64,000 nucleotides of DNA, taken from the NCBI GenBank assembly GCA_002205965.3, contig NADL03000199.1, positions 26,471 through 90,470 on the forward strand. Reading direction: 5' to 3'. Of the stretch, positions 4,727 through 64,000 are shown in pieces. A program made the translations under genes and the position numbers. Source of the DNA: Kappaphycus alvarezii (taxonomy: Eukaryota; Rhodophyta; Florideophyceae; Gigartinales; Solieriaceae). The notes under the pieces are model-generated. The model did no database searches. It worked only from the letters and a program-made list of their open reading frames with translations, and was not told the origin of the DNA. Positions within the stretch are counted from its first letter, which is position 1, and each line of letters starts with the position of its first letter.

Positions 4727-4740
4727 GGTTATGGGCCCAG
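4727..4740 (+). promoter_or_regulatory. Primer binding site, half-tRNA initiator Met type
   Basis: GGTTATGGGCCCAG follows the LTR CA end with no gap. Drosophila copia has the same sequence here and primes reverse transcription from a cleaved half of initiator tRNA-Met, pairing with its anticodon arm instead of its 3' end. The tract contains CAT complement ATG in the anticodon position. It sets the 5' boundary of the A2 internal region. Confidence 0.85.
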
Positions 4741-4896
4741 CCCACGCTACCGCTCTTTCCGCTTGATCCGTTCAACCGTTGACGTTGACGTTGAGGTAAT
4801 TGCTTTTCTGTGTTGTTGGTGCTGTTGGTGTTGTCACTTGTTGCTTCTTGGTTATTGTTGTTGGGTTCTTGTCGTTGTTGGGACCATTTGGTGATT

Positions 4897-5185
4897 GTCA
4901 AGCACTCTGTGTGTGGATCCTGAGTGTTTTTGTGGTTATCATTGTGTGTTGTTGGAATCTTTTGTTTGTGAGAACCATTCTAAGGCTGTCAAGCACTCTG
5001 TGTTGGATCCTGAGTGTTTTTGTGGTTATTATTGTGTGTTAGACTAGAGCATTCATTGCTTGTGCTCTACTGCTGTTGAGACCATTTTGTGTTGTCAAGC
5101 ACTCTGTGTGAGGATCCTGAGTGCTTTGTGGTGTCATTGCTCTGGTCATTGTTTGTTGGTTTGGTTTTCTGTCTCTTTTGTGGTG
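4897..5185 (+). repeat. Three-copy leader repeat, about 90-106 bp units
   Basis: GTCAAGCACTCTGTGTG begins units at 4897, 4988 and 5094. Each continues with GGATCCTGAGTG and a GT-rich run. The same three units recur in the other A leaders (11813-12100, 18607-18880, 30727-31010). The GT-rich composition argues against coding. Confidence 0.7.
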
Positions 5186-6160
5186 GTCGTGGTCATTCGG
5201 CAATTGTCAGCTCGAGTTTATTGTTTGGAAATATTGGCCTTGTTTTTGAGGAGAATCTAGGCCTGGTTGTTGATACCCCTTGCACTCTTGGAAAGCCTTC
5301 ACGGCAACGGAAAAGAGAAGACAGAGTGCCGGGGGTCCGCCCAAGTTTTCCGAATCTCTTGCCGAATCGTGGTCCTGGCAATCGGTTTTGTGATCCTCTC
5401 ACCGGCTGTACTCTTTTGAGAACAGTGCCTTTGTGTAACGCGAGTTGGACGGACCGTACCATACAAACCCACGCGGTTGATAACGCGAGTTATCAGAAGT
5501 CGTAAGACTGAACCGATTCCGGTGGGAATCACGGTGTACCAGCCGAGTCGGTCCGTTGCAGTGGCCCTTTTGCGCGCCGGCGGGACAGAGACGCTCCTCG
5601 CTTGAACGATCGATACGTACGCGAAACACCATCGCCCGTGGTCGGAGAGGGAACGACTGTCTTCTAATTCCTTACTCTGGTAGCATACCGGGTACTAGTG
5701 TTCTGCACTTGTATTTTGGTACCTGCTGGCTATACTTCTGTTGAGGTATAGATACGTGCTGTGCACGGAAGGACGAGGCTCATTGGTGACCTTGAGTGCT
5801 TTCACACGAGTACGACGGAAGTCAAGCAACACAGTCCGGAAGGAAACGCGCCTGAGTTAGTACGGAAAGACTGTGATTGTGGTAAGACGCCCTTTGCTGC
5901 GGGGACCTTTCGGGCTAGTGGCTGAAAATTCCTGGCCGTCTACAGGTAAAAGTTGCTGTGCTTACTCGTGGCACACGGATCGCGCTCAAAGTTGAAAGAC
6001 CAGCACTGGCCGATATACAGGGGTAGCGCCCTAAGGCACAAATAAAGAGGTGGTAAGAGGTAAAGAGGAGGAAAACTAAAGAGGTAAAGAGTTGGAAATT
6101 AAACACCACGTGTCTTTGAGTAAACGCTGCAAACTTCTTATAGGGAAAGGCTTGCCGTGA

Positions 6161-6185
6161 CAAGCGACTATCGGTCGCCGGCTTG
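6161..6185 (+). other. Conserved leader hairpin upstream of A2 gag
   Basis: CAAG-CGAC, loop TATCG, GTCG, bulge CCGG, CTTG. The same structure in lineage B is CAAG-GGAC / GTCC-CTTG, so the pair next to CAAG is C-G in A and G-C in B. The surrounding block (TTCTTATAG to GAACAGA, about 70 nt) is also shared. It lies 89 nt before the gag ATG. A packaging, dimerisation or translation role is inferred. Confidence 0.65.
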
Positions 6186-6273
6186 GGATACCTGAACAGA
6201 GGACTTTGCATACTCACTGCATACGTGGTAATAGAGGTTTCAGATACAAAGGGTCTTGGATAAGAACGTAGTC

Positions 6274-11639: not shown

Positions 11640-11652
11640 GGTTATGGCCCAG
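11640..11652 (+). promoter_or_regulatory. Primer binding site of A3 (one G short)
   Basis: GGTTATGGCCCAG, the initiator tRNA-Met half-tRNA site with one G missing from the GGG run. It directly follows the LTR end. Confidence 0.8.
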
Positions 11653-13191
11653 CCCACGCTACCGCTCTTTCCGCTTGATCCGTCCTCAACCGTTGACGTT
11701 GACGTTGAGGTAATTGCTTTCTCTGTGTTGTTGGTGCTGTTGGTGTTGTCACTTGTTGCTTTTTGGTTATTGTTGTTGGGTTCTTGTCGTTGTTGGGACC
11801 CATTTGGTGATTGTCAAGCACTCTGTGTGTGGATCCTGAGTGTTTTGTGGTTATCATTGTGTGTTGTTGGAATCTTTTGTTTGTGAGAACCAATTCTAAG
11901 GCTGTCAAGCACTCTGTGTGTGGATCCTGAGTGTTTTTGTGGTTATTATTGTGTGTTAGACTAGAGCATTCATTGCTTGTGCTCTACTGCTGTTGAGACC
12001 ATTTTGTGTTGTCAAGCACTCTGTGTGAGGATCCTGAGTGCTTTGTGGTGTCATTGCTCTGGTCATTGTTTGTTGGTTTGGTTTTCTGTCTCTTTTGTGG
12101 TGGTCGTGGTCATTCGACAATTGTCAGCTCGAGTTTATTGTTTGGAAATATTGGCCTTGTTTTTGAGGAGGAATCTAGGCCTGGTTGTTGATACCCCTTG
12201 CACTCTTGGAAAGCCTTCACGGCAACGGAAAAGAGAAGACAGAGTGCCGGGGGTCCGCCCAAGTTTTCCGAATCTCTTGCCGAATCGTGGTCCTGGCAAT
12301 CGGTTTTGTGATCCTCTCACCGGCTGTACTCTTTTGAGAACAGTGCCTTTGTGTAACGCGAGTTGGACGGACCGTACCATACAAACCCACGCGGTTGATA
12401 ACGCGAGTTATCAGAAGTCGTAAGACTGAACCCGATTCCGGTGGGAATCACGGTGTACCAGCCGAGTCGGTCCGTTGCAGTGGCCCTTTTGCGCGCCGGC
12501 GGGACAGAGACGCTCCTCGCTTGAACGATCGATACGTACGCGAAACACCATCGCCCGTGGTCGGAGAGGGAACGACTGTCTTCTAATTCCTTACTCTGGT
12601 AGCATACCGGGTACTAGTGTTCTGCACTTGTATTTTGGTACCTGCTGGCTATACTTCTGTTGAGGTATAGATACGTGCTGTGCACGGAAGGACGAGGCTC
12701 ATTGGTGACCTTGAGTGCTTTCACACGAGTACGACGGAAGTCAAGCAACACAGTCCGGAAGGAAACGCGCCTGAGTTAGTACGGAAAGACTGTGATTGTG
12801 GTAAGACGCCCTTTGCTGCGGGGACCTTTCGGGGTAGTGGCTGAAAATTCCTGGCCGTCTACAGGTAAAAGTTGCTGTGTTACTCGTGGCACACGGATCG
12901 CGCTCAAAGTTGAAAGACCAGCACTGGCCGATATACAGGGGTAGCGCCCTAAGGCACAAATAAAGAGGTGGTAAGAGGTAAAGAGGAGGAAAACTAAAGA
13001 GGTAAAGAGTTGGAAATTAAACACCACGTGTCTTTGAGTAAACGCTGCAAACTTCTTATAGGGAAAGGCTTGCCGTGACAAGCGACTATCGGTCGCCGGC
13101 TTGGGATACCTGAACAGAGGACTTTGCATACTCACTGCATACGTGGTAATAGAGGTTTCAGATACAAAGGGTCTTGGATAAGAACGTAGTC
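11653..13191 (+). other. A3 leader
   Basis: Same plan as the A2 leader: three GTCAAGCACTC repeats, an open frame ending at 12423, further short frames ending at 12586 and 12663, a purine-rich AAAGAGG tract (about 12960-13010), and the CAAG-CGAC hairpin at 13079-13103. The first intact ATG with copia similarity is the gag start at 13192. Confidence 0.6.
13079..13103 (+). other. Conserved leader hairpin upstream of A3 gag
   Basis: Identical to the stem at 6161-6185, 88 nt before the gag ATG. Confidence 0.65.
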
Positions 13192-18433: not shown

Positions 18434-18446
18434 GGTTATGGGCCAG
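18434..18446 (+). promoter_or_regulatory. Primer binding site of A4 (one base short)
   Basis: GGTTATGGGCCAG directly after the LTR; initiator tRNA-Met half-tRNA type. Confidence 0.78.
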
Positions 18447-19963
18447 CCCACGTACCGCTCATTCCGCTTGATCCGTACCTCAACCGTTGACGTTGACGTT
18501 GAGGTAATTTCTTTGTCTGTGTTGTTGGTGCTGTTGGTGTTGTCACTTGTTGCTTCTTGGTTATTGTTGTTGGGTTCTTGTCGTTGTTGGGAGCCATTTG
18601 GTGATTGTCAAGCACTCTGTGTGTGGATCCTGAGTGTTTTGTGGTTAGCATTGTGTGTTGTTGGAATCTTTTGTTTGTGAGAACCCATTCTAGGCTGTCA
18701 AGCACTCTTGTTTGGACCCTGAGTGTTTTTTGTGGTTATTATTGTGTGTTAGACTAGAGCATTCATTGCTTGTGCTCTACTGCAGTAGACATTTTGTGTG
18801 TCAGCACTCTGTGTGAGGATCCTGAGTGCTTTGTGGTGTCATTGTCTGGTCATTGTTTGTTGGTTTGGTTTTCTGTCTCTTTTGTGGTCGTGTTCATTCG
18901 GCAATTGGTCAGCTCGAGTTATTGTTTGGAAATATTGGCCTTGTTTTTCGGAGGAATATAGGCCTGGTTGTTGATACCCCTTGCACTCTTGAAAAGCCTT
19001 CACGGCAACGGAAAAGAGGAAGACCGAGTGCCGGGGGTCCGCCCAAGTTTTCCGAATCTCTTGGCGAATCGTGGTCCTGGCAATCGGTTTTGTGATCCTC
19101 TCACCGGCTGTACTCTTTTGAGAACAGTGCCTTTGTGTAACGCGAGTTGGACGGACCGTACCATACAAACCCACGCGGTTGATAACGCGAGTTATCAGAA
19201 GTCGTAAGACTGAACCGGATTCACGGTGGAATCACGGTGTACCAGCCGAGTCGGTCCGTTGCAGTGGCCCTTTTGCGCGCCGGGACAGAGACGCTCCTCG
19301 CTTGAACGATCGATACGTACGCGAAACACCATCGCCCGTGGTCGAGAGGGAACGACTGTCTTCTAATTCCTAATCTGGTAGCATACGGGTACTAGTGTTC
19401 TGCACTTGTATTTGGTACCTGCTGGCTATACTCTGTTGAGGTATAGATACGTGCTGTGCACGGAAGGACGAGGCTCATTGGTGACCTTGAGTGCTTTCAC
19501 ACGAGTACGACGGAAGTCAAGCAACACAGTCCGGAAGGAAACGCTGAGTTAGTACGGAAAGACTGTGATTGTGGTAAGACGCCCTTTGCTGCGGGACCTT
19601 TCGGGGTAGTGGCTGAAAATTCCTGGCCGTCTACAGGTAAAAGTTGCTGTGCTTACTCGTGGCACACGGATCGCGCTCAAAGTTGAAAGACCAGCACTGG
19701 CCGATATACAGGGGTAGCGCCTAAGGCACAAATAAAGAGGTGGTAAGAGGTAAAGAGGAGGAAAATAAAGAGGTAAAGAGTTGGAAATTAAACACCACGT
19801 GTCTCTTTGAGTAAACGCTGCAAACTTCTTATAGGGAAAGGCTTGCCGTGACAAGCGACTATCGGTCGCCGGCTTGGGATACCTGAACAGAGGACTTTGC
19901 ATACTCACTGCATACGTGGTAATAGAGGTTTAGATACAAAGGGTCTTGGATAAGAACGTAGTC
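18447..19963 (+). other. A4 leader
   Basis: Colinear with the other A leaders: repeats at 18607-18880, open frame ending at 19207, purine-rich tract near 19730-19780 and the hairpin at 19852-19876. A frame at 19456-19686 (Cys-rich) is longer than in the sister copies because one G is missing near 19595. I treat it as an accident of that indel. Confidence 0.55.
19852..19876 (+). other. Conserved leader hairpin upstream of A4 gag
   Basis: Identical to 6161-6185; 88 nt before the gag ATG. Confidence 0.65.
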
Positions 19964-30552: not shown

Positions 30553-30566
30553 GGTTATGGGCCCAG
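30553..30566 (+). promoter_or_regulatory. Primer binding site of A6
   Basis: GGTTATGGGCCCAG, full 14-nt match to the anticodon arm complement of initiator tRNA-Met. Confidence 0.85.
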
Positions 30567-32102
30567 CCCACGCTACCGCTCTTTCCGCTTGATCCGTCCC
30601 TCAACCGTTGACGTTGACGTTGAGGTAATTGCTTTCTCTGTGTTGTTGGTGCTGTTGGTGTTGTCACTTGTTGCTTTTGGTTATTGTTGTTGGGTTCTTG
30701 TCGTTGTTGGGACCCATTTGGTGATTGTCAAGCACTCTGTGTGTGGATCCTGAGTTTTTTGTGGTTATCATTGTGTGTTGTTGGAATCTTTTGTTTGTGA
30801 GAACCAATTCTAAGGCTGTCAAGCACTCTGTGTGTGGATCCTGAGTGTTTTTGTGGTTATTATTGTGTGTTAGACTAGAGCATTCATTGCTTGTGCTCTA
30901 CTGCTGTTGAGACCTTTTGTGTTGTCAAGCACTCTGTGTGAGGATCCTGAGTGCTTTGTGGTTCATTGCTCTGTGTCATTGTTTGTTGGTTTGGTTTTCT
31001 GTCTCTTTTGTGGTGGTCGTGGTCATTCGCAATTGTCAGCTCGAGTTTATTGTTTGGAATATTGGCCTTGTTGTTTGGAGGAATCTAGGCCTGGTTGTTG
31101 ATACCCCTTGCACTCTTGGAAAGCCTTCACGGCAACGGAAAAGAAGAAGACAGAGTGCCGGGGGTCCGCCCAAGTTTGTCCGATCTCTTGCCGAATCGTG
31201 GTCTGGCAATCGGTTTTGTGATCCTCTCACCGGCTGTACTCTTTTGAGAACAGTGCCTTTGTGTAACGCGAGTTGGACGGACCGTACCATACAAACCCAC
31301 GCGGTTGATAACGCGAGTTATCAGAAGTCGTAAGACTGAACCCGATTCCGGTGGGAATCACGGTGTACCAGCCGAGTCGGTCCGTTGCAGTGGCCCTTTT
31401 GCGCGCCGGCGGGACAGAGACGCTCCTCGCTTGAACGATCGATACGTACGCGAAACACCATCGCCCGTGGTCGGAGAGGGAACGACTGTCTTCTAATTCC
31501 TTACTCTGGTAGCATACCGGGTACTAGTGTTCTGCACTTGTATTTTGGTACCTGCTGGCTATACTTCTGTTGAGGTATAGATACGTGCTGTGCACGGAAG
31601 GACGAGGCTCATTGGTGACCTTGAGTGCTTTCACACGAGTACGACGGAAGTCAAGCAACACAGTCCGGAAGGAAACGCGCCTGAGTTAGTACGGAAAGAC
31701 TGTGATTGTGGTAAGACGCCCTTTGCTGCGGGGACCTTTCGGGGTAGTGGCTGAAAATTCCTGGCCGTCTACAGGTAAAAGTTGCTGTGCTTACTCGTGG
31801 CACACGGATCGCGCTCAAAGTTGAAAGACCAGCACTGGCCGATATACAGGGGTAGCGCCCTAAGGCACAAATAAAGAGGTGGTAAGAGGTAAAGAGGAGG
31901 AAAACTAAAGAGGTAAAGAGTTGGAAATTAAACACCACGTGTCTTTGAGTAAACGCTGCAAACTTCTTATAGGGAAAGGCTTGCCGTGACAAGCGACTAT
32001 CGGTCGCCGGCTTGGGATACCTGAACAGAGGACTTTGCATACTCACTGCATACGTGGTAATAGAGGTTTCAGATACAAAGGGTCTTGGATAAGAACGTAG
32101 TC
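30567..32102 (+). other. A6 leader
   Basis: Colinear with the other A leaders. It has repeats from 30727, an open frame ending 31333, short frames ending 31496 and 31573, a purine-rich tract near 31870-31920 and the hairpin at 31990-32014. Confidence 0.6.
31990..32014 (+). other. Conserved leader hairpin upstream of A6 gag
   Basis: Identical to 6161-6185; 88 nt before the gag ATG. Confidence 0.65.
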
Positions 32103-37725: not shown

Positions 37726-40669
37726 TGGGAGATTTCCATCTAGAAACTACACCTAGTGAGAGCGTTCCTTTGATATATCTCAGAACTCGTTTGGCTGCTT
37801 GCCAGTGGTCCTCGCGAGGGTTCTCACAGTGTTGGGACAGTTTTCCCACCACATATGCAAGATCTGGACGTGACCCTACCATAAGAAACATTAAGCAGCC
37901 AATGATCTGTCGATATGGTACATCGCAATACGGGCTAGTTGACATCTCAGGGTGTAATCCTTGTTCCATCGGAGTCCTCACGGGATTGCAACTGGCCATA
38001 CCAAAACGTTTCAAAATGGACTTGGCATACTCTGTCTGCGAGATATAGATCCGTCTAGGGACCCTTTTTCTACTTATTTCAAGCCCAATGCACTTTTTGG
38101 CCTCGCCTAAATCTTTCATCTCAAATCTCTTGTTCAGTTCACCTTTCATCCAGGTCACGGCTTTCAGGTCACTTCCCGCAAGAAGCAAGTCATCCACATA
38201 TAGGGCAATCAGCATAACGCCTTTTTCTGATATGTTTGTATATAGACAGGCGTCACTTCTCGTAGTCTTGAAGCCAAGCGTGTGAATTAGGAAATCGTCA
38301 ATCTTTTTGTGCCATTGTCGACTCGCTTGCTTAAGACCATAGATAGCCTTGAGAAGTTTGCAAACATGATTGGGCCTGGAAGAGTCAACGATACCTTCAG
38401 GCTGCTCCATATAAATATCCTCTTCTAAGTCACCGTTCAGAAAGGCCGTGACCACGTCCATTTGATGAAGCTCTAAATCGAAGTGGGCTACAATCGCCAA
38501 CAACAATCGAATCGTTGTAAATTTGATCACCGGCGCAAAAGTCTCTGAGTAATCAATCCCCTCAATTTGTTGAAAGCCCCGCACAACCAGGCGACCTTTT
38601 CCCTTTTGAGTCAACGTGCCGTTATCGTCCGGCATGTCCTTTACAGTAAATACCCAGCGAGAAGTTAGAATATTGGCACCTTCCGATCGTGGAACTAGTG
38701 CCCAGGTTTTGTTTTTGCGTTGGGACTCTAGCTCCTTATCAATCGCTTTCTGCCAGAACTGTGGTTGTGGTCCACCCATCGCCTCTTTAAAGGAGTTCGG
38801 TATGTTGATGTCGCCACAGGAAGGTGTGAGTAAGCTGGTTCCCACCAGGCCTGTCCACCACTGTCGGGGTGGGCGTCGTGAACGAGTGGAGCGGCGAGGT
38901 TCCACATCGCCGGGACCAGCATCTTGCTCACCACTCACTTCTTCTGGTTGCAAAGTCTCATTAGTTGAGTCGGGCTCAATACCTTGACTTTGAAAGTTCT
39001 CAACCTCCGCCGGTGACCCTGTTTCAATGCCATGTTCATTATCACCATTAGATGTTTCAGACTCAATTTCGTCAGTATCGGTCGTCTCCACTGGGTCAAC
39101 GTCCATCATTATCATCGGAAAATGTTCATCGTAAGAGCAAGCCCCTGGTCTCGTCTCATCGAACTGCACATCCCTGGAAATAACAATGCGATGTAAATTG
39201 TCATCCCAAATTTTGTAGGCCTTAGTTCCCGGCGGATACCCAACAAACATTCCCGTTGTTGCGCGGTCGTCAAGTTTACGCACCTCATTACCAGGCACCT
39301 TGTACCAGCATTGACATCCAAACACACGTAGGTGAGATACATCGGGCTTTTTCTTCATCCATAGGTGAAATGGAGTAACGAGACCACCCAAAGCTCTTGT
39401 CGTGACACGATTGCGAACGTAAACTGCGTTATCAAGAGCTTCAGCCCAGAAAGCTTTCGGAACCTTCATATGGGACAGCATAGACCTGACGAGATCAATC
39501 AGGGTACGATTGAGCCGTTCTGCCACACCATTCTGTTCAGGTGTGTATGCAGCGGTCGTTTGATGAACAGTTCCTTGTGACGATAGAAAGGATTGGAACT
39601 CTGAAGAAAGATACTCTCCTCCACGATCAGATCGAAGCACTTTCACGCGTTGACCAGTGTGTGTGAAGGCATATTGGGCAAACTTCTGATAAAAATGGAA
39701 CGTTTCATCTTTACTCTTCATCGGATAGACAACACTCCAGTTTGAGTGGTCATCGATAAAAGTGACAAAGTATCTAGCACCACCTACTGACTGTACTTGG
39801 AGTGGGCCGCAGACGTCCGAATGGACCAAGTCTAGCAAATGTTTGGCCCTGCCTCCAGAGCGCTGTTTAGGAATCACAGCACGAGTTGCTTTTCCTAACA
39901 CACACGCATCACATGTCACAGATTCACAGTCAGAAGATGAGCTAGCGTCTCTTGTTATATCTGAAGAGGAGATATGAAGTCCACTTACCACGTTCTTACG
40001 AGCCATGGACAATATTCCTTGAGTGTGAACGTGGGCCAATCTTTCATGCCATGTCTTCAAAGAGGCTTTGTGCGCCGAATGAACCTCGTTACATGTGTCA
40101 AGCACATACAGCTCTCCTCGACTTGTGGCAGTAGCCACGATGCAGTCACTCCTCTTCACAGTGCACTTGTCACGAACGAACTCAACGTCAAATCCATTAT
40201 CGACCATCTTACGTACAGAGATTAGGGAAAAAGCAAAGCTTGGAACGTGCAGCACATTGGTGAGCTTGCATGACTTTTGAACTCCGCTCACTAAAAGCGT
40301 AATGGGGACGGTCCCGACTCCAGCTACTACTGCACACGCTTTTGTTCCCATTTCTACGCGGCTGTTTGAGACCTCCCTGTAGTCGGAGAACAGTCTCTTG
40401 TCAAATGTCATGTGTGCGGAGCATCCAGAGTCGATAAGCCAAGTGTTTGAGGTTATGTTGATACCAGAGTTATCTACCTTGTTCATCAGACATATGTACT
40501 CGACTTCATTAATTTCCAGATCTTCTTGCTCTTGAGCAATCATCGCAGTAGGCTTCTGTGACTGTATACGTAGGAACCGGTCAGGTGGCGGTGGTCGCCT
40601 TCCGTTGATGTCCTTTCCCCAGCAGCGGGCAGCGGAGTGTCCATTGTGACCACAGTTGGTGCATGTCAA
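37556..40669 (-). CDS. pol: Bc1 Gag-Pol polyprotein, longest open frame (1037 codons)
   Basis: Domains by residue: CCHC zinc knuckle 3-16; protease DSG at 80-82; pre-integrase and HHCC zinc site H208, H213, C253, C256; integrase DDE at D285, D348, E384, with exactly 35 residues between the last two; Arg/Pro-rich linker 590-605; RT with D738 in HQMD and YVDD at 824-827; RNase H from about 975. Residues about 975-992 are out of phase and lose the first RNase H Asp, then the frame recovers until it stops at 1037. It starts inside gag because upstream gag is shifted by indels (see 40670-41336). As in copia, one gag-pol frame is expected. Enzymes up to RT look complete. Confidence 0.9.
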   Translation of the reverse strand: MTCTNCGHNGHSAARCWGKDINGRRPPPPDRFLRIQSQKPTAMIAQEQEDLEINEVEYICLMNKVDNSGINITSNTWLIDSGCSAHMTFDKRLFSDYREVSNSRVEMGTKACAVVAGVGTVPITLLVSGVQKSCKLTNVLHVPSFAFSLISVRKMVDNGFDVEFVRDKCTVKRSDCIVATATSRGELYVLDTCNEVHSAHKASLKTWHERLAHVHTQGILSMARKNVVSGLHISSSDITRDASSSSDCESVTCDACVLGKATRAVIPKQRSGGRAKHLLDLVHSDVCGPLQVQSVGGARYFVTFIDDHSNWSVVYPMKSKDETFHFYQKFAQYAFTHTGQRVKVLRSDRGGEYLSSEFQSFLSSQGTVHQTTAAYTPEQNGVAERLNRTLIDLVRSMLSHMKVPKAFWAEALDNAVYVRNRVTTRALGGLVTPFHLWMKKKPDVSHLRVFGCQCWYKVPGNEVRKLDDRATTGMFVGYPPGTKAYKIWDDNLHRIVISRDVQFDETRPGACSYDEHFPMIMMDVDPVETTDTDEIESETSNGDNEHGIETGSPAEVENFQSQGIEPDSTNETLQPEEVSGEQDAGPGDVEPRRSTRSRRPPRQWWTGLVGTSLLTPSCGDINIPNSFKEAMGGPQPQFWQKAIDKELESQRKNKTWALVPRSEGANILTSRWVFTVKDMPDDNGTLTQKGKGRLVVRGFQQIEGIDYSETFAPVIKFTTIRLLLAIVAHFDLELHQMDVVTAFLNGDLEEDIYMEQPEGIVDSSRPNHVCKLLKAIYGLKQASRQWHKKIDDFLIHTLGFKTTRSDACLYTNISEKGVMLIALYVDDLLLAGSDLKAVTWMKGELNKRFEMKDLGEAKKCIGLEISRKRVPRRIYISQTEYAKSILKRFGMASCNPVRTPMEQGLHPEMSTSPYCDVPYRQIIGCLMFLMVGSRPDLAYVVGKLSQHCENPREDHWQAAKRVLRYIKGTLSLGVVSRWKSPSANSRGLQRCRLGGCLDSRKSTSGYVFKLCGGAISWSSRRQTVVAKSTCEAVYCTV

Positions 40670-41336
40670 AGTCGAAACACGCCTTGCCTCAGGGATGTGC
40701 CCAATAAGAGCAGACCTTGGCGGATTCTGCCTTCTAGTAAGCTCATCGATGCACGTTGCTCCTCTTGGAGCAGGCGACTTTTTACATATTCTACTCCGAA
40801 CGTGTTATCTTCGGATCCAAGAGCGTCAAGCGCTACAATGAGATTTTGAAACCTCTGCGGAAGACCATTGAGAACTGCCATAGCCATTTCCTTGTCATCA
40901 ATGATGACTCCATTGACTTTAAGCGAGCTGCTAGGTGTCGCACACGTCCTATGTATGGCAAAACTTTCTCATTGTCTAGCATGGTGACCGTGTAGAAGTC
41001 TCTCCGGGCCGCCAGCTTATTTAGTAATGTGTGGCGCTCAAAAACTTCCAAGATGGCGTCCCACATTTCTTTGGCTGTGACAGCATCTCTCACATGATCC
41101 AGGTGATCATCGGACAGCGACAGGCCGATGATGGCCCGGGCCTTTCGATCCCCTTGCTTCCATGCCTTGTAAGTGGAAGATTGTTCATCTTCAGGAACGG
41201 TGCCATCAGTAATATACTGTTCCACATCGCGAAGGGCCAACAGGAGCTGAATCTTCTGTTTCCACACGTAGAAATTGGTATCCGTGAGCTTTTCGATCTT
41301 CATCGATCCTCCTCCTTGATCTTCTCCGCTACTCAT
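40670..41336 (-). pseudogene. gag: Bc1 gag, N-terminal and capsid domains
   Basis: ATG at 41336 (MSSGEDQGGGSMKIEKL) is shared with Bb and Bc4. The first frame runs to about 40905. There a lost G (KSMESSLM against KSMGVIID) shifts it. A second indel near 40740 separates this part from the knuckle frame. Capsid words HTLLNKLAARR and VLNGLPQRF are present. Confidence 0.87.
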
Positions 41337-41376
41337 TGCAATATTCTAGAGGTGCTAATGTTCTGTTCGAAGATCC

Positions 41377-41401
41377 CAAGCCGGGGACCGATAGTCCCTT
41401 G
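41377..41401 (-). other. Conserved leader hairpin upstream of Bc1 gag
   Basis: On the minus strand CAAG-GGAC, loop TATCG, GTCC, CCGG, CTTG. It is identical to Bc4 (62190-62214), with G-C where lineage A has C-G. Confidence 0.65.
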
Positions 41402-41496
41402 TAGTGGCAAGCCCACCTCTATAAGAACACAGCACACGAAACTCTAGACTAAAGCAAAGGCCAAAGACGTCGCTTCAAACAAACAAATGGATCTCT

Positions 41497-41998
41497 TTAA
41501 ATTCTCTGGGACAAAACTACTTTCAAGTGTTCCTTCCCGTTCTCTGACGCTTGAGAAACCTCGTGGGAATCGAACACTCTATCACAAGCAGTACACCTAG
41601 GGGTCTTTTTCTTGTTTTCTCTCTAGTCCTATACCCTTAGAATTGATGTGATCGTAGAATGTCTGTGCGCTATTGCAGCTAATATCACAGAGCTTGCAGT
41701 ACCTCTTGTTCCTCGGCGGAACTCTTCGTTTAGCCTTTAGTTCCTTCTTGGCAACTCGATCGGCGAGGGCTTTAGCTTTCTTTGCCGAGAGGCGTTGAAC
41801 TTTCTTTATTGGCTTATCCAGAGGTACTGACTTACGAGGGATCCTATACCTTTCCTAGACGAGGGAAGCGCGAGCGTCTTCGGCGGCGGTCCTTCTGGTT
41901 CGAGTACTTCGATCGATTCCACAACTGTCCTCCCCACAGATGGCAAAGTCCTAACTGTCGCAGCCCTGGGCACTCGGGCACCAGGGCTAATTCCGAGT
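41497..41998 (-). pseudogene. Bc1 leader zinc-finger ORF, exon 2, frameshifted
   Basis: This is a minus-strand copy of the Bc4 leader protein. Exon 2 would start at 41998 after the CTAG acceptor. The proline/basic stretch and both zinc-finger regions are present, but several single bases are missing. One lies in the second finger, where CTTGAGAAACC has lost and gained bases against Bc4. The ATG exon is missing because Bb sequence starts at 42063, inside the intron. Confidence 0.75.
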
Positions 41999-42062
41999 CT
42001 AGCAAACCCGCAAAAGCAGGCACAAAAGTGGAAGTGATCGTCAGTAACAGCTTTGGGATTAT

Positions 42063-43371: not shown

Positions 43372-43384
43372 GGTTATGGCCCAG
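43372..43384 (+). promoter_or_regulatory. Primer binding site of Bb (one G short)
   Basis: GGTTATGGCCCAG follows CTTCA; initiator tRNA-Met half-tRNA type. A possible 5' splice site CCC/GTAAGTCGC follows near 43411. Confidence 0.8.
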
Positions 43385-43467
43385 TTCAACGCTATCTCTC
43401 TCTTTGATTCCCGTAAGTCGCCTGTGTCGTTGTCCTCTTTCGCTTTGTTTGTCTCAGCCTGTTGAAT

Positions 43468-44127
43468 ATGTCTCACGCTCCTGGTAAGTTATTTGAATAA
43501 TTCCATTTCTTTGCACATCGAAGTGATTCTCTTTGCACCTTTGGTTGGTCTAAAGACTTGTAGTTACATAAACCTGTTACTGACGATCACTTCCACTATC
43601 TGTGCCTGCTTCTGCGGGGTTGTGCTAGACTCGGAATTAGCCCTGGTGCCGCGAGTGCCCAGGGCTCCATTGGTCAGAGGTTTACCGTCAGGGAGGAGGT
43701 CAAGTGTGTAGAGGATCGAGGTGATTGAACCGACAACACCACCGCCGCCGACGCTCGCCCTTCCTGCCGCCCAGGAAGGATATAGGATCCCCCGCAGGTC
43801 AGTACCTCCACAGAAGCCGATTAGAAAAATTCAACAACTCTCGCCAAGAAAGCCAAAGCGCTTGCCGATCAAGTCGCGAAGAGGGAGCTGAAGGCGAAGA
43901 AGCGAGTTCCGCCGAGGCACAAGAGGTACTGCAAGACCTGCCAGATTAGCTGCAATAGTGCTAAGACATTCTACGATCACGTACATCTAAGGGTCATAAT
44001 ACTAGAGTAGCCAACAAAAAGGAGACCCCTAGGTGTACTGTTTGTGATAGAGTGTTCGACTCCCACGAAGTTCTGAACGCACGAGAACGGGAAAGATCAC
44101 TTGAAAGTATTTTTGTCTCAGCAGTAA
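43468..44127 (+). pseudogene. Bb leader zinc-finger ORF, spliced, broken
   Basis: The ATG exon 43468-43483 is 16 nt and ends CCTG/GTAAGT. The intron 43484-43628 (145 nt) ends GTGCTAG. Exon 2 resumes in frame with DSELALVPRVPRA, the same start as Bc4 exon 2. The frame then stops at about 43709 (TAG). Recognisable coding for the basic region and for two zinc fingers (RYCKTCQISC near 43928, RCTVCDRVFDSHE near 44035) continues in other frames to a TAA at 44125. Loss of bases in the first finger's His region (CACGTACATCTAAGG) is clear. Confidence 0.72.
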
Positions 44128-44223
44128 AAGGGATCCTATACTTTGGTTAAAAGCGAGTGCTCGGCTTTGCATTTAGCTTAGAGTTTCGTGTGCTGTGTTC
44201 TTATAGAGGTGGGCTTGCCATTG

Positions 44224-44248
44224 CAAGGGACTATCGGTCCCCGGTTTG
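44224..44248 (+). other. Conserved leader hairpin upstream of Bb gag
   Basis: CAAG-GGAC, loop TATCG, GTCC, CCGG, TTTG. The closing C of the other copies is T here, giving a G-U wobble that keeps the stem. Confidence 0.62.
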
Positions 44249-44289
44249 GGATCTTCGAACAGAACACAAGCACCTCTAATCTATTTACA

Positions 44290-45187
44290 ATGAGTAGCGG
44301 AGAAGATCAAGGAGGAGGGTCAATGAAGATAGAGAAGCTGAAGGATACGAATTTTATGTGTGGAAGCAGAAAATACAGCTACTTTTGGCACTGCGAGATG
44401 TAGGACAGTACATAACAGATGATACCGTCCCTGCTGATGAAAATTCTTCAACGTACAGGACATGGAAGCAGGGAGATCGAAAAGCCAGAGCAATCATAGG
44501 CTTCTCTTTCTGATGACCATTTGGACCATGTAAGAGATGCTGTTACTGCCAAGGGTATGTGGGATGCTATTCTAGAGTGTTTGAGCGACATACGCTGCTG
44601 AACAAGTTGGCTGCTCGTAGAGAGTTTTGCACTGTCAGTATGCTAGAAAATGAGAAGGTGCTCCGTATATCGGACGTGTAGACACCTGGCGGCTCGTTTG
44701 AAGTCCATGGGGGTCGTTATCGATGACAAAGAGATGGCTATTGCAGTGCTTAACGGCCTTCCACCGCGTTTTACAGCCTCATTGTTGCTCTGGACGCTCT
44801 TGGATCAGAAGACAACTCCTTTGGAGTGGAGTATGTCAAAAGTCGTCTACTTCAAGAGGAACAACGAGCTTCAATGAGGTCGTCCAGCGACAGATGACTT
44901 CAAGTGCCGCCCTTACTGGCAATGTTTTTGAAGGAAGGCGCCAGTCTTCTTTGACGTGCACTAATTGTGGTCACACCGGACACACCGCCTCCCGTTGCTG
45001 GGGAAAGGATGTTAATGGAAAGCGACCTTCTCCACCCGAACGATTTCAGCGGAGGCAATTACAGAAGCCAACGGCAATGATCGCTCAAGAAAAGGATGGC
45101 TCGGAAGTGAATGAGGTGGAGTATATTTGTCTGGTGAACAAAGCGGATAAGTCTAACGTTAAAAAACCTCTAACACATGGCTTATAG
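44290..45187 (+). pseudogene. gag: Bb gag, frameshifted
   Basis: ATG at 44290 starts MSSGEDQGGGSMKIEKL. The frame is lost near 44352 (one base missing before the Trp-Lys-Gln motif), near 44505 and near 44665. The nucleocapsid frame 44723-45187 contains intact CTNCGHTGHTASRC (about 44958-45000). It shifts again near 45165, before the protease. Confidence 0.83.
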
Positions 45188-46128
45188 ATTCCGGGTGCTC
45201 CGCGCACATGACGTTTGACAAAAGATCTTTACAGACTACCGTGAGGTCTCGAACAGCCGCGTTGAGATGGAAACCAAGGCTTGTGCGATTGTGGCTGGAG
45301 TCGGGAGCATTCATTTGATGCTATCAGTGAACGGCATTGAAAAATCTTGTAAGCTCAGCAATGTGCTACACTTTCCCAGTTTTGCCTTCTCTCTAATTTC
45401 AGTACGCCAGATGGTCGACAATGGACTTGATGTTCAGTTTGTTCGTGACAAGTGTACTGTACAGAAAAATGACTGTACTGTGGCAACCGCGACAAGTAAA
45501 GGAGAGCTCTACGTGCTTGATACGTGTGATATGACTCATTCGGCTCACAAAGCCTCCTTGAAGACGTGGCACGAAAGACTTGCTCACGTTCATACTCAAG
45601 GAATCTTGTCTATGTCTCGCAAGAACGTGGTAAGTGGACTTCATCTTTCTTCTACAAATGATACTAAAGATACTGGCTCATCTTCTGACTGTGATTCCGT
45701 GAAATGCGATGCTTGTGTGGTAGGAAAAGCAACTCGTGCTGTAATTCCCAAACATCGCTCAGGAGGTAGGGCAAAGCAGCTGCTAGACTTAGTCCATTCG
45801 GACGTCTGTGGCCCACTCCAAACACAGTCATTAGGTGGTGCGAGATACTTTGTCACGTTCATCGATGATTACTCCAACTGGAGCGTTGTCTATCCGATGA
45901 AAGTAAAGATGAAAACTTTCGAGTTCTATAAGAAGTTTGCCAATTATGCCCTTACGCATACCGGTCAGCGAGTGAAAGTGTTTTCGTTCAGATCGTGGAG
46001 GGGAGTATCTTTCCTCGCAGTTCCAATCCTTCTTATCCTCCAAGGAACGGTTCATCAAACGACCGCCGCTTACACGCCTGAACAAAATGGCGTCGCAAAC
46101 GGTTCAACCGTACATTGATAGATCTGGT
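45188..46128 (+). pseudogene. pol: Bb protease to integrase core, cut by solo LTR
   Basis: LIDSGCSAHMTFD (about 45180-45220) keeps the DSG protease triad. The frame 45267-46118 (283 codons) carries the pre-integrase domain, CDAC, HSDVCG and FIDDYSNW. A base gain near 45980 scrambles RSDRGGEY. TPEQNGVA follows at 46075, then bases are lost in the catalytic Glu region. The interruption at 46128 follows IDLV. Confidence 0.85.
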
Positions 46129-55316: not shown

Positions 55317-55330
55317 GGTTATGGGCCCAG
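55317..55330 (+). promoter_or_regulatory. Primer binding site of lineage C
   Basis: GGTTATGGGCCCAG directly after CCATCA; initiator tRNA-Met half-tRNA type, identical to lineages A and Bc. Confidence 0.85.
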
Positions 55331-55820
55331 GACACTAGCGCTGCTCACGAATCCATCTCGCTTGCTCGCGCACCCTGGACGCTACCTCCTGTTCCTCCTA
55401 TCTCCAGGCTCAAGTCTTTCCTCCTGGTTTGTGACCTTTGCCAACTCAAAGTCTCGGGTCCAAAGCAGCTCGAGCAGCACAGAGGTGGAAGGAAGTGTCG
55501 AAACAGAGTCGAGAGGAGATCAGCCATCACTCCGTGTGTTTGCTGCAACCGTCTCTTCCAGACAAGACACGATCGCAACAGGCACATTGATCGTAGAAAT
55601 AAGTATATATGTTCTCGACCCCCTGTGCTCCCTCTATCTATAAGCACAGTTTTCTTCACTCCACTGCTTTTCTCCATGGACTCTTCAGGACTTCGACTCG
55701 ACAGCCTCGAGAAGCTCCGTGATGACAACTTCCACATCTGGAAGTCGAGAATTCAACTATTGCTCTCACTGAGGGAAGTTGACGACCACCTTACTGAAGA
55801 CCCTCCAGAATCCTCGTCAC
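55331..55820 (+). pseudogene. Lineage C leader zinc fingers in frame with Gag start, truncated
   Basis: One frame is open across the primer site to 55864. It encodes a finger with C-x2-C-x12-H-x5-C (CDLC from 55430) and another with C-x2-C-x12-H followed by a Cys eight residues on (CVCC from 55535). It then runs without a stop into MDSSGLRLDSLEKL at 55676, a Gag start with NFHIWKSRIQLLLSL. No ATG precedes the fingers. CTATCTCCAG near 55406 could be a splice acceptor for a small ATG exon, as in Bc4. Gag is cut at 55820 by a reversed LTR. Whether this is a true finger-Gag fusion or read-through is unknown. Confidence 0.65.
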
Positions 55821-57493
55821 TGAAGATGAGTTGCGATGGGGAAGGCTGGTGGGAGAGAGGATGAAGCTGCGGGCTTGGCTACCAGAATTTACTCGGTACT
55901 CTAAAATTCTGACCTTAAGTACAACCTGCAACTACTCTCTAACTCACTGCGTCCATTAACAAAAACATAGAAACTGAACCATTTGGACAGATTGAAAACA
56001 TATTGGCCCAGTAATAACGTTCAATTGGGGCATTTTTAGAACTGCTTCCAAAGTTGTCAAATTCATTTAAGACAGTTTGGCCCAATACACACATCAATAC
56101 AGCACCTTATTTTGTAAACTCATCCGAACGAATTCTTTTGTGCCAAACTAACGGACTCAACCCGTCATACGTATTATGGAATCACACAACTGATTTTGGA
56201 TGCAGCCGGAAAACCGTAATCATAATCAGAAACCTCATACGTATTATAGAATCACATAACTGATTTTGGATGCAGCCGGCAAACCGTAATCATAATCAGA
56301 AACCTCATACGTATGGTAGAATCACACAACTGATTTCGGATGCAGCCGGACTAACCATAATCATAATCAGAAACCTCATACGTGTTATAGACACATAGCT
56401 GATTTGGATGCAGCGGGCAAACCTTAATCATAATCAGAAACCTCATACGTATTATGGAATCACACAACTGATTTTGGATGCAGCGGGCAAACCTTAATCA
56501 TAATCAGAAACCTCATACGTATTATGGAATCACACAACTGATTTGGATGCAGCCGGATAACTCGTAATCATAATTAGAACCTCATACGTATTATAGAATC
56601 ACATAACTGATTTTGGATGCAGCCGGCAAACCGTAATCATGATCAGAAACCTCATACGTATTATAGAATCACATAACTGATTTCGGATGCAGCCGGACTA
56701 ACCATAATCATACTAGAAACCTCATACGTATTATAGAATCACAAAACTGATTTTGGATGCAGCCGGCGGATACAGCAGGCATTCTACTGTACCTGGAGAG
56801 ACCGGAGCGGTGTAGCCATGATAGTATTTTCATAACCAAATCCCACTGTACGAAACCCAAGTGCAGTAAGAAGTACAGTACGAGGTACAGTAAGAAGCAC
56901 AGTACGAGGTACAGTAAGAAGCACAGTACGATGTAAAACGAAACTTGACACCAGTACAGTATGTGTACACCACTGCACCAAAGGTTTCTAATCTTTGCTG
57001 TACCACGTGTACATCACATACACAACTGCCACCACGTACACGTGTACATACCTTACCTCGACATACCTCTTATACAGTATACTCCTCACCCACTTACAGT
57101 GCCCTACCCTATGTAAATGACCCCATAAAACACCATTCTGCCCTCTAAATAGCTCAAAGTCAACCCTTACACCTCTACAGCCATTACACGTGTACATCAC
57201 CAGCCAATAGAATTGCAGCATTGACCTATCACCCAATAGGATTAAAGCAGGCAATTCTTAGCCTAGGCATTATGGGCCAAGTTCCACTTGTCAACAATTA
57301 TGCAAAATTTGCATTTATCGTCGACCCTCGAAAAAGGCTTTTCGTCCCCGGCAACTTTGTTTTTCGGGTAAATTTGGCATATTTTATCCTTCAGAATCAC
57401 ATTGTCCACGTGTACAGATAACAGCTTCCCAACCTCCGTGCGAGACGTCTAGTCAAGGCGATGGGTGTGATCTGGTCACAAAAATCACCAACA
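55821..57493 (-). repeat. Reversed Bb-type LTR (1673 bp) with expanded U3 array
   Basis: On the minus strand it runs TGTTGGTGATTTTTG to ATCTTCA. It is 370 bp longer than other Bb LTRs because the roughly 70-bp U3 repeat has about nine units (56163-56765) instead of four. Flanking pentamers GTCAC and TGTAC differ, so it is not a clean insertion. Confidence 0.87.
56163..56765 (-). repeat. U3 minisatellite, about 70-bp unit, nine copies
   Basis: On the plus strand each unit reads through CTGATTTTGGATGCAGCC and AATCAGAAACCTCATACG. Units vary at GGCAAACCG / GGACTAACC positions in an alternating order, which suggests block duplication. Confidence 0.85.
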
Positions 57494-59967: not shown

Positions 59968-61332
59968 TGTTGTTGATTTGGCAAGACGATCACATGACCC
60001 CACATCGGTGCCAAACTCATAAGAGGCATGAGGCATGTTCCACGTGTACACATGCACACGTGTTGAATGAAGGGTGGCCTAAGGCATTCCGGAAGAAATC
60101 CAAAGTTCCCAGGGACGAAAGTACGATTTTGAGAGATCAGCGATTTAGAGGGCAAAATATTGTTTATGGGGTGATTTTACGTAGGGTAGGGTACTATAAG
60201 TGGATGATGAGTATACTGTATGAGAGATATGCTGAGGAAAGCTATGTACACGTGTACGTGGTGGCAGTTGTGTATGTGATGTACACGTGGTACAGCTAAG
60301 AGTAGAAACCTTTTTGTGCAGTGTTGTACACGTACTGTACTAGTGCCAAATGAGGAACTGTACTTCGCACTGTACATCGTAATATACCAAGTACTGTACT
60401 CCTTACTATACCTGAGTTTGTACAGTAGGAATCAATTATGGCAATACTGTCATGACTGCTAGAAAGAGGTATTTGATTTATATTATGTATGAGGATTCTA
60501 GTTATGATTACGGGTTTTATCCAGCTGCATCCAAAAATCGGTTATGTGATTTCATCATATGTATGAGGTTTCTAGTTATGATATTGGTTTTACAGCTGCA
60601 TCCAAAAATCAGTTATGTGATTCCATCATACGTATGTGGTTTCTAGTTATGATATTGGTTTGTACAACTGCATCCAAAAATCAGTTATGTGATTCCATCA
60701 TACGTATGTGGTTTCTAGTTATGATATTGGTTTGTACAACTGCATCCAAAAATCAGTTATGTGATTCCATCATACGTATGTGGTTTCTAGTTATGATAGT
60801 TTGTACAACTGCATCCAAAAATCAGTTATGTGATTCCATCATATGTATGAGGTTCGTAATTATGATGAAGATTGACACTGCATCCAAAAATCAGTTATGT
60901 GATTCCATCATATGTATGAGGTTCGTAATTATGATGAAGATTGGACCGACTGCATCCAAAATCAGTTATGTGATTCTATTATACGTATGACGGATTGAGT
61001 CCGTTATTTTGGCACAAGGGAATTCGTTTCCGGTAAGTCTGCAAAATAAGGTACTGTATTGATGTGTGTATTGGGCCAACCTATTTACACAAATTTGTCA
61101 ACTTTGGAAGCAGTTCCAAATTTGCCCCTAATGACTGTTATCACCGGGCCAAGATCTTGAAATCCGCTCAAATGGCTCAGTTTGTGGGATTCTGTTAGTG
61201 GACGCAGTGAGTTAGAAAGTAGTTGTAGGTTGTACTTAAGGCCAGGATTTTAGAGTTCCGAGTAAATTCTGGGTAGCCAAGCCCGCAACTTCATCCGTCC
61301 AGCAAAGTCCTTCACCCTCCCGATTCCCATTA
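59968..61332 (+). repeat. Bc4 5' LTR (1365 bp)
   Basis: TGTTGTTGATTTGGC to TTCCCATTA. It contains GTACACGTGTACGTGG (about 60246), GATGTACACGTGG (about 60279), TACTGTAC words (60340-60430) and seven U3 repeat units. The end is TTA, not CA, just as in Bc1. Confidence 0.87.
60520..61000 (+). repeat. U3 minisatellite, about 70-bp unit, seven copies
   Basis: Units carry CTGCATCCAAAAATCAGTT, ATTCCATCATACGTATG and GGTTTCTAGTTATGATA. Middle units are nearly identical, which points to recent local duplication. A long open frame through them is a by-product of the 72-bp-like period. Confidence 0.87.
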
Positions 61333-61346
61333 GGTTATGGGCCCAG
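61333..61346 (+). promoter_or_regulatory. Primer binding site of Bc4
   Basis: GGTTATGGGCCCAG, initiator tRNA-Met half-tRNA type. It is followed 28 nt later by a possible 5' splice site CCCC/GTAAGT at 61375, whose nearest acceptor TATCTCAG (61418) would leave only a 44-nt intron. Confidence 0.85.
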
Positions 61347-61428: not shown

Positions 61429-62094
61429 ATGTCTACTCGTTCCGGTAAGCTATTTGAATAATTCCATTTCTTTGCACATCGAAGTGATTCTCTTTGCACC
61501 TTTTGGTTGGTCTAAAGACTCATAATCCCAAAAGCTGTTACTGACGATCACTTCCACTTTTGTGCCTGCTTTTGCGGGGTTGTGCTAGACTCGGAATTAG
61601 CCCTGGTGCCCCGAGTGCCCAGGGCTGCGACAGTTAGGACTTTGCCATCTGTGGGGAGGACAGTTGTGGAATCGATCGAAGTACTCGAACCAGAAGGACC
61701 GCCGCCGAAGACGCTCGCGCTTCCCTCGTCTAGGGAAAGGTATAGGATCCCTCGTAAGTCAGTACCTCTGGATAAGCCAATAAAGAAAGTTCAACGCCTC
61801 TCGGCAAAGAAAGCTAAAGCCCTCGCCGATCGAGTTGCCAAGAAGGAACTAAAGGCTAAACGAAGAGTTCCGCCGAGGAACAAGAGGTACTGCAAGCTCT
61901 GTGATATTAGCTGCAATAGCGCACAGACATTCTACGATCACATCAATTCTAAGGGTCATAGGACTAGAGAGAAAAACAAGAAAAAGACCCCTAGGTGTAC
62001 TGCTTGTGATAGAGTGTTCGATTCCCACGAGGTTCTCAAGCGTCACGAGAACGGGAAGGAACACTTGAAAGTAGTTTTGTCCCAGAGAATTTAA
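61429..62094 (+). CDS. Leader-encoded tandem U1/JAZ-type zinc-finger protein (spliced, 173 aa predicted)
   Basis: Exon 1 is 61429-61444 (ATG plus 13 nt), with donor GTAAGC at 61445. A branch-like TACTGAC is at about 61540. The acceptor CTAG ends at 61588, and exon 2 is 61589-62094. The joined frame is phase-correct, and exon 2 alone has no ATG until far inside. Residues about 10-50 are Pro-rich and about 60-110 strongly basic. Finger 1 (61891-61959) and finger 2 (61996-62064) are both C-x2-C-x12-H-x5-H, joined by a 12-residue basic linker. This spacing is that of U1-type/JAZ zinc fingers, many of which bind double-stranded RNA. Bb shows the same 16-nt exon and intron. It is not part of standard Gag-Pol; a role in RNA handling or nuclear entry is inferred. 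Confidence 0.78.
61445..61588 (+). other. Predicted 144-nt GT-AG intron in Bc4 leader
   Basis: GTAAGC at the 5' end and GTGCTAG at the 3' end, with a T-rich stretch (CACTTTTGTGCCTGCTTTTG) before the acceptor. The Bb copy (43484-43628) keeps both sites, the 16-nt upstream exon and the phase despite flanking divergence. Unspliced RNA would lack a start codon for the finger protein. Confidence 0.65.
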
Positions 62095-62189
62095 AGAGAT
62101 CCATTTGTTTGTTTGAAGCGACGTCTTTGGCCTTTGCTTTAGTCTAGAGTTTCGTGTGCTGTGTTCTTATAGAGGTGGGCTTGCCACTA

Positions 62190-62214
62190 CAAGGGACTAT
62201 CGGTCCCCGGCTTG
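62190..62214 (+). other. Conserved leader hairpin upstream of Bc4 gag
   Basis: CAAG-GGAC, loop TATCG, GTCC, CCGG, CTTG, 40 nt before the gag ATG. It pairs as in lineage A, with one swapped base pair. Confidence 0.68.
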
Positions 62215-62254
62215 GGATCTTCGAACAGAACATTAGCACCTCTAGAATATTGCA

Positions 62255-63302
62255 ATGAGTAGCGGAGAAGATCAAGGAGGAGGATCGATGAAGATCGAAA
62301 AGCTCACGGATACCAATTTCTACGTGTGGAAACAGAAGATTCAGCTCCTGTTGGCCCTTCGCGATGTGGAACAGTATATTACTGATGGCACCGTTCCTGA
62401 AGATGAACAATCTTCCACTTACAAGGCATGGAAGCAAGGGGATCGAAAGGCCCGGGCCATCATCGGCCTGTCGCTGTCTGATCGATCACCTGGATCATGT
62501 GAGAGATGCTGTCACAGCCAAAGAAATGTGGGACGCCATCTTGGAAGTTTTTGAGCGCCACACATTACTAAATAAGCTGGCGGCCCGGAGAGACTTCTAC
62601 ACGGTCACCATGCTAGACAATGAGAAAGTTTTGCCATACATAGGACGTGTGCGACACCTAGCAGCTCGCTTAAAGTCAATGGGAGTCATCATTGATGACA
62701 AGGAAATGGCTATGGCAGTTCTCAATGGTCTTCCGCAGAGGTTTCAAAATCTCATTGTAGCGCTTGACGCTCTTGGATCCGAAGATAACACGTTCGGAGT
62801 AGAATATGTAAAAAGTCGCCTGCTCCAAGAGGAGCAACGTGCATCGATGAAGCTTACTAGAAGGCAGAATCCGCCAAGTTCTGCTCTTATTGGGCACATC
62901 CCTGAGGCAAGGCGTGTTTCGACTTTGACATGCACCAACTGTGGTCACAATGGACACTCCGCTGCCCGCTGCTGGGGAAAGGACATCAACGGAAGGCGAC
63001 CACCGCCACCTGACCGGTTCCTACGTAGACAGTCACAGAAGCCTACTGCGATGATTGCTCAAGAGCAAGAAGATCTGGAAATTAATGAAGTCGAGTACAT
63101 ATGTCTGATGAACAAGGTAGATAACTCTGGTATCAACATAACCTCAAACACTTGGCTTATCGACTCTGGATGCTCCGCGCACATGACATTTGACAAGAGA
63201 CTGTTCTCCGACTACAGGGAGGTCTCAAACAGCCGCGTAGAAATGGGAACAAAAGCGTGTGCAGTAGTAGCTGGAGTCGGGACCGTCCCATTACGCTTTT
63301 AG
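62255..63302 (+). pseudogene. gag: Bc4 gag and protease start, one frameshift in gag
   Basis: ATG at 62255 (MSSGEDQGGGSMKIEKL). An extra base near 62483 (TCTGATCGATCACC) shifts the frame. The second frame then runs to 63302 with the capsid domain (HTLLNKLAARR, VLNGLPQRF), zinc knuckle CTNCGHNGHSAARC (about 62931-62972) and protease WLIDSGCSAHMTFD (about 63152-63195, DSG). It ends where a C is missing in GTCCCATTACG compared with Bc1. With those two bases corrected by reads, gag to protease would be open; I infer that only from the Bc1 comparison. Confidence 0.87.
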
Positions 63303-64000
63303 TGAACGGAGTTCAAAAGTCATGCAAGCTCACCAATGTGCTGCACGTTCCAAGCTTTGCTTTTTCCCTAATTCTGTACGTAAGATGGTCGATAATGGAT
63401 TTGACGTTGAGTTCGTTCGTGACAAGTGCACTGTGAAGAGGAGTGACTGCATCGTGGCTACTGCCACAAGTCGAGGAGAGCTGTATGTGCTTGACACATG
63501 TAACGAGGTTCATTCGGCGCACAAAGCCTCTTTGAAGACATGGCATGAAAGATTGGCCCACGTTCACACTCAAGGAATATTGTCCATGGCTCGTAAGAAC
63601 GTGGTAAGTGGACTTCATATCTCCTCTTCAGATATAACAAGAGACGCTAGCTCATCTTCTGACTGTGAATCTGTGACATGTGATGCGTGTGTGTTAGGAA
63701 AAGCAACTCGTGCTGTGATTCCTAAACAGCGCTCTGGAGGCAGGGCCAAACATTTGCTAGACTTGGTCCATTCGGACGTCTGCGGCCCACTCCAAGTACA
63801 GTCAGTAGGTGGTGCTAGATACTTTGTCACTTTTATCGATGACCACTCAAACTGGAGTGTTGTCTATCCGATGAAGAGTAAAGATGAAACGTTCCATTTT
63901 TATCAGAAGTTTGCCCAATATGCCTTCACACACACTGGTCAACGCGTGAAAGTGCTTCGATCTGATCGTGGAGGAGAGTATCTTTCTTCAGAGTTCCAAT
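63303..64000 (+). pseudogene. pol: Bc4 pre-integrase and integrase, cut by window end
   Basis: It continues colinear with Bc1. There is a further shift near 63372 (CTAATTCTGTACG lacks bases against Bc1), then HERLAH (about 63546), CDAC (about 63680), HSDVCG (about 63771), FIDDHSNW (about 63834) and RSDRGGEY (about 63960). The catalytic Glu lies outside the window. Confidence 0.85.

Follow-up and report, generated by a model that had tools for sequence, protein, structure and literature searches.

Copia-type long terminal repeat (LTR) retrotransposons are usually described as carrying gag-pol only. The closest described system to the one considered here is rice tungro bacilliform virus (RTBV), for which the excerpted source reports that a splice donor in the upstream open reading frame (uORF) of the leader joins this uORF to an accessory open reading frame (ORF), and that the lack of internal AUGs in ORFs I and II makes it easier for ribosomes to reach the polyprotein ORF by leaky scanning across 900 nt (PMC5902531). 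Among Copia elements, splicing yields a subgenomic message in Drosophila copia and barley BARE1, which are named in the excerpts used here as the only spliced Copia elements demonstrated by 2013, and these splices give Gag-only messages, by removal of pol or of a 104-nt intron at the end of gag (PMC3735527). The extra ORFs of plant LTR retrotransposons, as excerpted, include env-like genes, Grande gene23, Retand ORF4 and others, and are commonest between pol and the 3' LTR, although they can also be located upstream of gag-pol (PMC7264820). Sireviruses, which are Copia elements, may carry an envelope-like gene (excerpt of PMC2829016), and a survey covering 121 plant assemblies, in the excerpted part, records no Copia-type elements that have gained a domain (PMC9289625). 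This study concerns a 64,000-nt stretch of DNA from the red alga Kappaphycus alvarezii (contig NADL03000199.1, positions 26,471 to 90,470; hereafter the window) and a copia element within it, element A, in whose leader an earlier note, made from the letters alone, had proposed a spliced gene for a protein with two U1/JAZ-type zinc fingers. The analysis indicates that this is almost certainly a real, conserved accessory gene, with the following parts.

61333..61346, plus strand: primer-binding site (PBS) of element A, GGTTATGGGCCCAG
61429..61444, plus strand: exon 1 (16 nt), carrying the start codon (ATG) for the zinc-finger protein
61445..61588, plus strand: putative intron (144 nt), with donor GTAAGC, branch-like TACTGAC at 61539 and acceptor TGTGCTAG
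61589..62094, plus strand: exon 2 (506 nt, stop codon included), with a basic middle and two U1/JAZ-type fingers
61891–61959 and 61996–62064, plus strand: the two zinc fingers, placed by motif positions, Pfam and AlphaFold
61445..62254, plus strand: part of the leader without AUG (810 nt, all frames)
62255..63302, plus strand: gag and the start of pol (Retrotran_gag_2, 7.8e-24; Pol_BBD, 2.7e-13)

The lengths of 16, 144 and 506 nt, the GT–AG ends, the phase and the 173-residue product given in the earlier note were all exact on recomputation, and the two C-x2-C-x12-H-x5-H fingers are indeed of equal length, with 23 residues (69 nt) each. Exon 2, for which the earlier note had claimed a strongly basic middle, is basic, with 42 lysines and arginines against 18 aspartates and glutamates. 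In a hidden Markov model (HMM) search, zf-C2H2_jaz matched two stretches with 53.6 bits (E = 2e-14; cut-off 22.6) and zf-met matched two with 42.3 bits (cut-off 21.2), which bears out the proposed finger type, and the AlphaFold model has high confidence for the fingers (block means of 94–98 across most of 61891..62064) and shows a basic helix at residues 73–91. A sequence profile against the PDB gave 17 chains, mainly generic C2H2 fingers; ZFa and ZNF622 were among them at E values of 0.005–0.006, and a viral structure library gave no match at an E value of 0.001 or less, the best being a Riboviria polyprotein at 1.2e-3. The placement ahead of gag also stands: within this copia element, the gene is located between the PBS (61333) and the gag ATG (62255). 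Exon 2 contains no Met codon, so that the finger frame needs a start codon from outside or a non-AUG start.

Two further copies of the element are present in the window.

39592..42062, minus strand: copy B, 99% identical to A, without everything upstream of 61522
43372..46027, plus strand: copy C, 79% identical to A, with the same leader plan
43468–43483, 43484–43628 and 44290, plus strand: exon 1, intron and gag ATG of copy C

The finger ORF is under purifying selection and is a member of a conserved family. The ratio of non-synonymous to synonymous substitution (dN/dS), a value near 1 for which was one of two refuting outcomes named in the earlier note, is 0.25 for exon 2 between A and C, and thus not near 1 in this one pair of copies (162 codons, with five dropped for indels and one for a stop), and the 38 amino-acid changes compare with a neutral mean of 64.8, a number as low being reached in none of 2,000 simulations. 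The ratio is 0.38 in the N-terminal half of exon 2 and 0.17 in the C-terminal half containing the fingers, is 1.50 and 2.92 in the two other frames, and is 0.04–0.05 in gag. The profile search listed 69 proteins, 64 of which (P0002–P0065) are homologue clusters; P0001 is the window's own protein or a near copy, and P0066–P0069 are host zinc-finger proteins (three ZMAT3-like and one plant U1-type protein, with E values of 2.7e-4 to 6.3e-3). Over 45 aligned sequences nine columns are invariant, including some cysteines and histidines of the fingers and the IP of YRIPR. A tblastn search in phages gave no match, and the zinc-finger alignment found no relative in viral contigs or genome contigs. 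The zinc-finger frame of copy C is interrupted by indels and one stop, and over 1,882 columns of alignment copy B shows 14 gaps and 6 mismatches to A, several of the gaps lying within the zinc-finger frame. The differences between A and B (39592–42062 versus 61522–64000) are mostly single-base gaps, a pattern that errors of sequencing in the assembly may explain.

Focusing on the candidate splice sites, the ATG, the 16-nt length of exon 1, the phase, the donor GTAAG[CT], TACTGAC and the acceptor TGTGCTAG are kept in both A and C, despite an identity of only 9/16 within exon 1, and the peptides that would be joined at the splice are MSTRSDSELALVPRV in A and MSHAPDSELALVPRV in C. Splice-like signals and phase are thus conserved in two diverged copies. 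The predictions for 29 of the 64 homologues extend back across the junction, and the residue there (L in 18, T in 8 and I, P and S in one each) can be encoded by NYA in all 29; in this count 33 rows stop short of the junction, two mis-anchored rows (P0052 and P0058) were dropped, and many of the rows counted are close relatives, so that they represent few independent changes. These residues fit a retained YAG acceptor and do not prove it. The N-terminus of P0052, MSTELVPRV, is similar to the spliced N-terminus, which is suggestive only. Thymine makes up 37.5% of the intron and 20.0% of exon 2; in the excerpted BARE1 paper, U-richness served to recognise a plant intron (PMC3735527). Judged from these sequence features, splicing of the leader intron is likely, and an accessory factor translated from a spliced RNA, as the earlier note had it, is still the best reading after testing.

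The leader shows a second regularity, in its start codons. Between the donor and the start codon of gag, neither the 810 nt of A nor the 806 nt of C contains an ATG in any frame; shuffling gives means of 9.3 and 9.2, respectively, and none of 60 shuffles of either reached zero. ATG is the sole trinucleotide that is absent from both stretches, whereas CAT occurs nine times in each. The same scarcity is found in the homologues: the 44 full-length ones among the 64 (20 shorter ones being excluded) contain three Met residues in 7,526 residues after the first, compared with 2.6% in 120 pol proteins, and the simplest reading is that these homologues would sit in the same kind of leader. Without splicing, the ATG of exon 1 opens a uORF of ten codons, MSTRSGKLFE* in A (ending at 61461) and MSHAPGKLFE* in C. 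Leaders of two other copia families in the window can be compared with those of A and C.

55317..55864, plus strand: family D leader, with its PBS at 55317, then a degenerate pair of fingers, and the start of gag (55676)
4734–6273, 11647–13191, 18441–19963 and 30560–32102: leaders of the four copies of family F (F1–F4)

The four family F leaders contain no ATG from PBS to gag over 1523–1545 nt, with about 21 expected (20 shuffles each), and the family D leader contains one. We take the PBS to match the anticodon arm of initiator tRNA-Met, a half-tRNA priming of the kind known from Drosophila copia. Pairing with the CAU anticodon would presumably explain the ATG within the PBS, which opens a uORF in all seven leaders. 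These uORFs range from 5 to 80 codons (A, 10; C, 29; F1 and F4, 11; F2 and F3, 80; D, 5) and so are not all short. The PBS core, GGTTATGG, is found at seven plus-strand sites in the window, including that of element A, a count to which one further match on the minus strand (17505) does not belong. The simplest reading, which we consider likely, is that gag is reached by ribosomes scanning past the AUG-free stretch. Leaders of 0.8–1.5 kb without AUG in A, C and family F would make this a simple and checkable rule for reaching gag.

A look for the finger frame in other copia leaders, as the earlier note had advised, gave the degenerate pair of family D (HMM i-E value 1.9e-4; zf-met 25.2 bits, cut-off 21.2; zf-C2H2_jaz under its cut-off) and no finger ORF in the leaders of family F. 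The finger stretch of family D, which is incomplete and has other LTR copies on its flanks, is open in frame into gag. These remnants speak for a long-standing link between fingers of this type and the leaders of copia elements.

The putative intron is also conserved as a sequence. Between A and C, 134 of 143 ungapped columns are identical (93.7%, with three gap columns), whereas exon 2 is identical at 390 of 500 positions (78%). The predicted fold of the A intron has an energy of -39.7 kcal/mol and a z-score of -3.63, with none of 200 shuffles as stable, and that of the C intron has a z-score of -2.1; twelve 144-nt windows from the PBS through gag gave values from -2.25, in the window that covers most of the intron, to +2.1. 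Of the 40 pairs predicted in A, 35 are unchanged in C, two are kept by a one-sided change and three are lost, all five altered pairs being located in the apical part of the fold, and no compensatory change was found among the predicted pairs between A and C. Recombination as the source of the intron identity is disfavoured, since six of the nine mismatches and two of the three gaps are apical (alignment columns 56–91). Rfam gave nothing at gathering over the window, with one leader match at E = 1 far under its gathering score. A second conserved segment lies before gag.

62164..62230, plus strand: conserved pre-gag block of about 65 nt, starting with TTCTTATAG and common to A, C and family F

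Between A and family F (about 6138–6205) this block is 80% identical over 66 nt (E = 3.8e-14), and it may act as a cis-acting signal or provide, at 62172/62173, a second 3' splice site. A hairpin GSGAC/GUCSC before gag, which shows one double change between A/C and F, was considered and set aside, as its z-scores of +0.14, -0.14 and -0.74 are shuffle-like; no claim is made for it.

Taken together, a splice-switched uORF in the AUG-free leader of a copia element is the best model, with a probability of roughly 0.7. The full-length RNA would retain the intron, and a ribosome starting at 61429 would make the ten-codon peptide and then stop; because the intervening stretch holds no AUG, the next to be met would be that of gag, 793 nt further. 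Removal of the intron would eliminate the stop of the exon 1 uORF and join the same AUG in phase to exon 2, giving the 173-residue finger protein with its basic helix, and the intron would be a conserved folded RNA found only in the full-length RNA. Reinitiation or leaky scanning, and any role in the cycle of the element, are what we infer. The protein would most likely bind the element's own structured RNA and affect the splicing, export, packaging or silencing of the full-length RNA. That it acts on RNA is somewhat favoured, with binding of double-stranded RNA suggested by the finger type alone, and that its own intron is the RNA concerned is doubtful. It is similarly doubtful that protein and intron hairpin form a self-regulating Rev-like or packaging circuit which sets the share of unspliced genomic RNA, a circuit that would then be independent of retroviruses in origin and kept across related elements.

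The same leader can be read in other ways. If exon 2 were translated from unspliced RNA by a non-AUG start, such as a GUG before the acceptor, the 'intron' would be a conserved cis-acting RNA only. The frame is open upstream to 61516, a GTG precedes CTAG in A, the homologues have V or a predicted start there, and RTBV, in the excerpts used, has an AUU-started ORF I and upstream ORFs without internal AUGs (PMC5902531). However, such a start leaves unexplained why the ATG, length and phase of exon 1 are kept in C at 9/16 identity, together with the donor, the branch-like site and the acceptor, and we regard it as improbable. Slightly less probable still is a spliced RNA made chiefly for gag, by a join of exon 1 to the second acceptor (62172/62173), with the finger splice as a minor product. 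The conservation of TTCTTATAG in A, C and the four F copies, and the fact that this join reads in frame into gag in C, would agree with it, but in A the same join meets a stop overlapping the gag ATG, the gag-pol proteins listed share no common N-terminal extension (those of P0072 and P0088 are short and unlike each other), and depletion of AUG within the leader would be needless if the leader were always removed.

Two alternatives concern the protein rather than its expression. The gene may be as described and its product a suppressor of RNA silencing or double-stranded RNA sensing aimed at host pathways, a possibility we consider unlikely on balance; Pfam describes zf-C2H2_jaz as binding double-stranded RNA, and P4 of RTBV, whose spliced RNA is comparable, is reported in the excerpted text to interfere with silencing (PMC5902531), although the intron, being conserved and structured, would be a target closer at hand. 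That the frame arose by chance, or is a piece of a host gene captured by the element and serving no function there, would be in keeping with the broken frames of copies B and C, and the weak matches to the three ZMAT3-like proteins and the plant U1-type protein fit a host origin, but a dN/dS of 0.25, 64 homologue clusters and nine invariant columns over 45 sequences make it very improbable.

The remaining features define the class and extent of element A.

59968..61329, plus strand: 5' LTR of element A (TG...CA, 1,362 bp), with boundaries from alignment with other LTR copies
60487–60990, plus strand: 72-bp tandem array within this LTR
22.3, 27.1, 36.3, 42.8, 46.8, 50.4, 54.3 and 56.2 kb: other LTR copies of this group with tandem arrays

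The arrays in this LTR group have units of 69–83 bp, and their copy number differs between LTR copies. The 5' LTR and PBS of element A were identified, its 3' end lies beyond the window, past whose end the element extends, and its gag frame, which starts at 62255, is broken near 62480. The element is assigned to Ty1/copia by the copia-type gag of A and by the order of integrase before reverse transcriptase in the pol ORF of copy B (Pfam rve at 326–422, then RVT_2 at 698–947). Among the best 120 of 4,023 matches, the closest named pol relatives are from Chondrus crispus, the top one with 56% identity, and the next are from plants, with 38%, from which a red algal host would be read; a search of viral contigs with the pol ORF gave no relative. 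GalEa-like copia elements are reported to occur in red algae in the excerpted text of PMC3587641.

In comparison with known systems, a search of the open full-text literature, with subscription papers and Repbase outside its scope, turned up neither a copia leader with a U1/JAZ-finger gene nor a copia case of a splice-switched uORF in an AUG-free leader. Beyond the earlier note, the conserved structured intron, the ATG-free leader, the ten-codon uORF and the finger remnants of family D (55.3 kb) are new. Identity to the four host zinc-finger proteins is 27–37% over 24–71% of the query, and for the N-terminal motifs (IEVxEP and YRIPR) with the basic helix no counterpart was found among JAZ, ZFa, ZMAT3 and spliceosomal fingers, in structure searches that barely probed this part. 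The gene resembles the additional ORFs of plant elements, which like it are conserved and add to the usual coding content of LTR retrotransposons, and differs from the splices of copia and BARE1 in that the leader intron of element A would open a new gene. With Rev-like retroviral factors only the layout of a spliced gene and a structured intron would match. If the protein does act on its own intron, the division of RNA among translation, splicing and packaging in a single-ORF element would become directly testable. The likeness to RTBV is closer: judged by sequence, both A and C have the start codon of a uORF in an upstream exon that could be joined in phase to an accessory ORF, and no AUG between this uORF and the AUG of gag, in the place of the polyprotein. 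RTBV is, however, a pararetrovirus with its spliced ORF IV downstream of the polyprotein ORF, and its P4 is not described as a two-finger U1/JAZ protein in the excerpted text (PMC5902531), whereas the ORF of element A is located upstream of gag, inside the AUG-free region of a copia LTR element. The leader of element A holds a conserved accessory gene of a copia element, with a proposed expression scheme otherwise known from a plant pararetrovirus.
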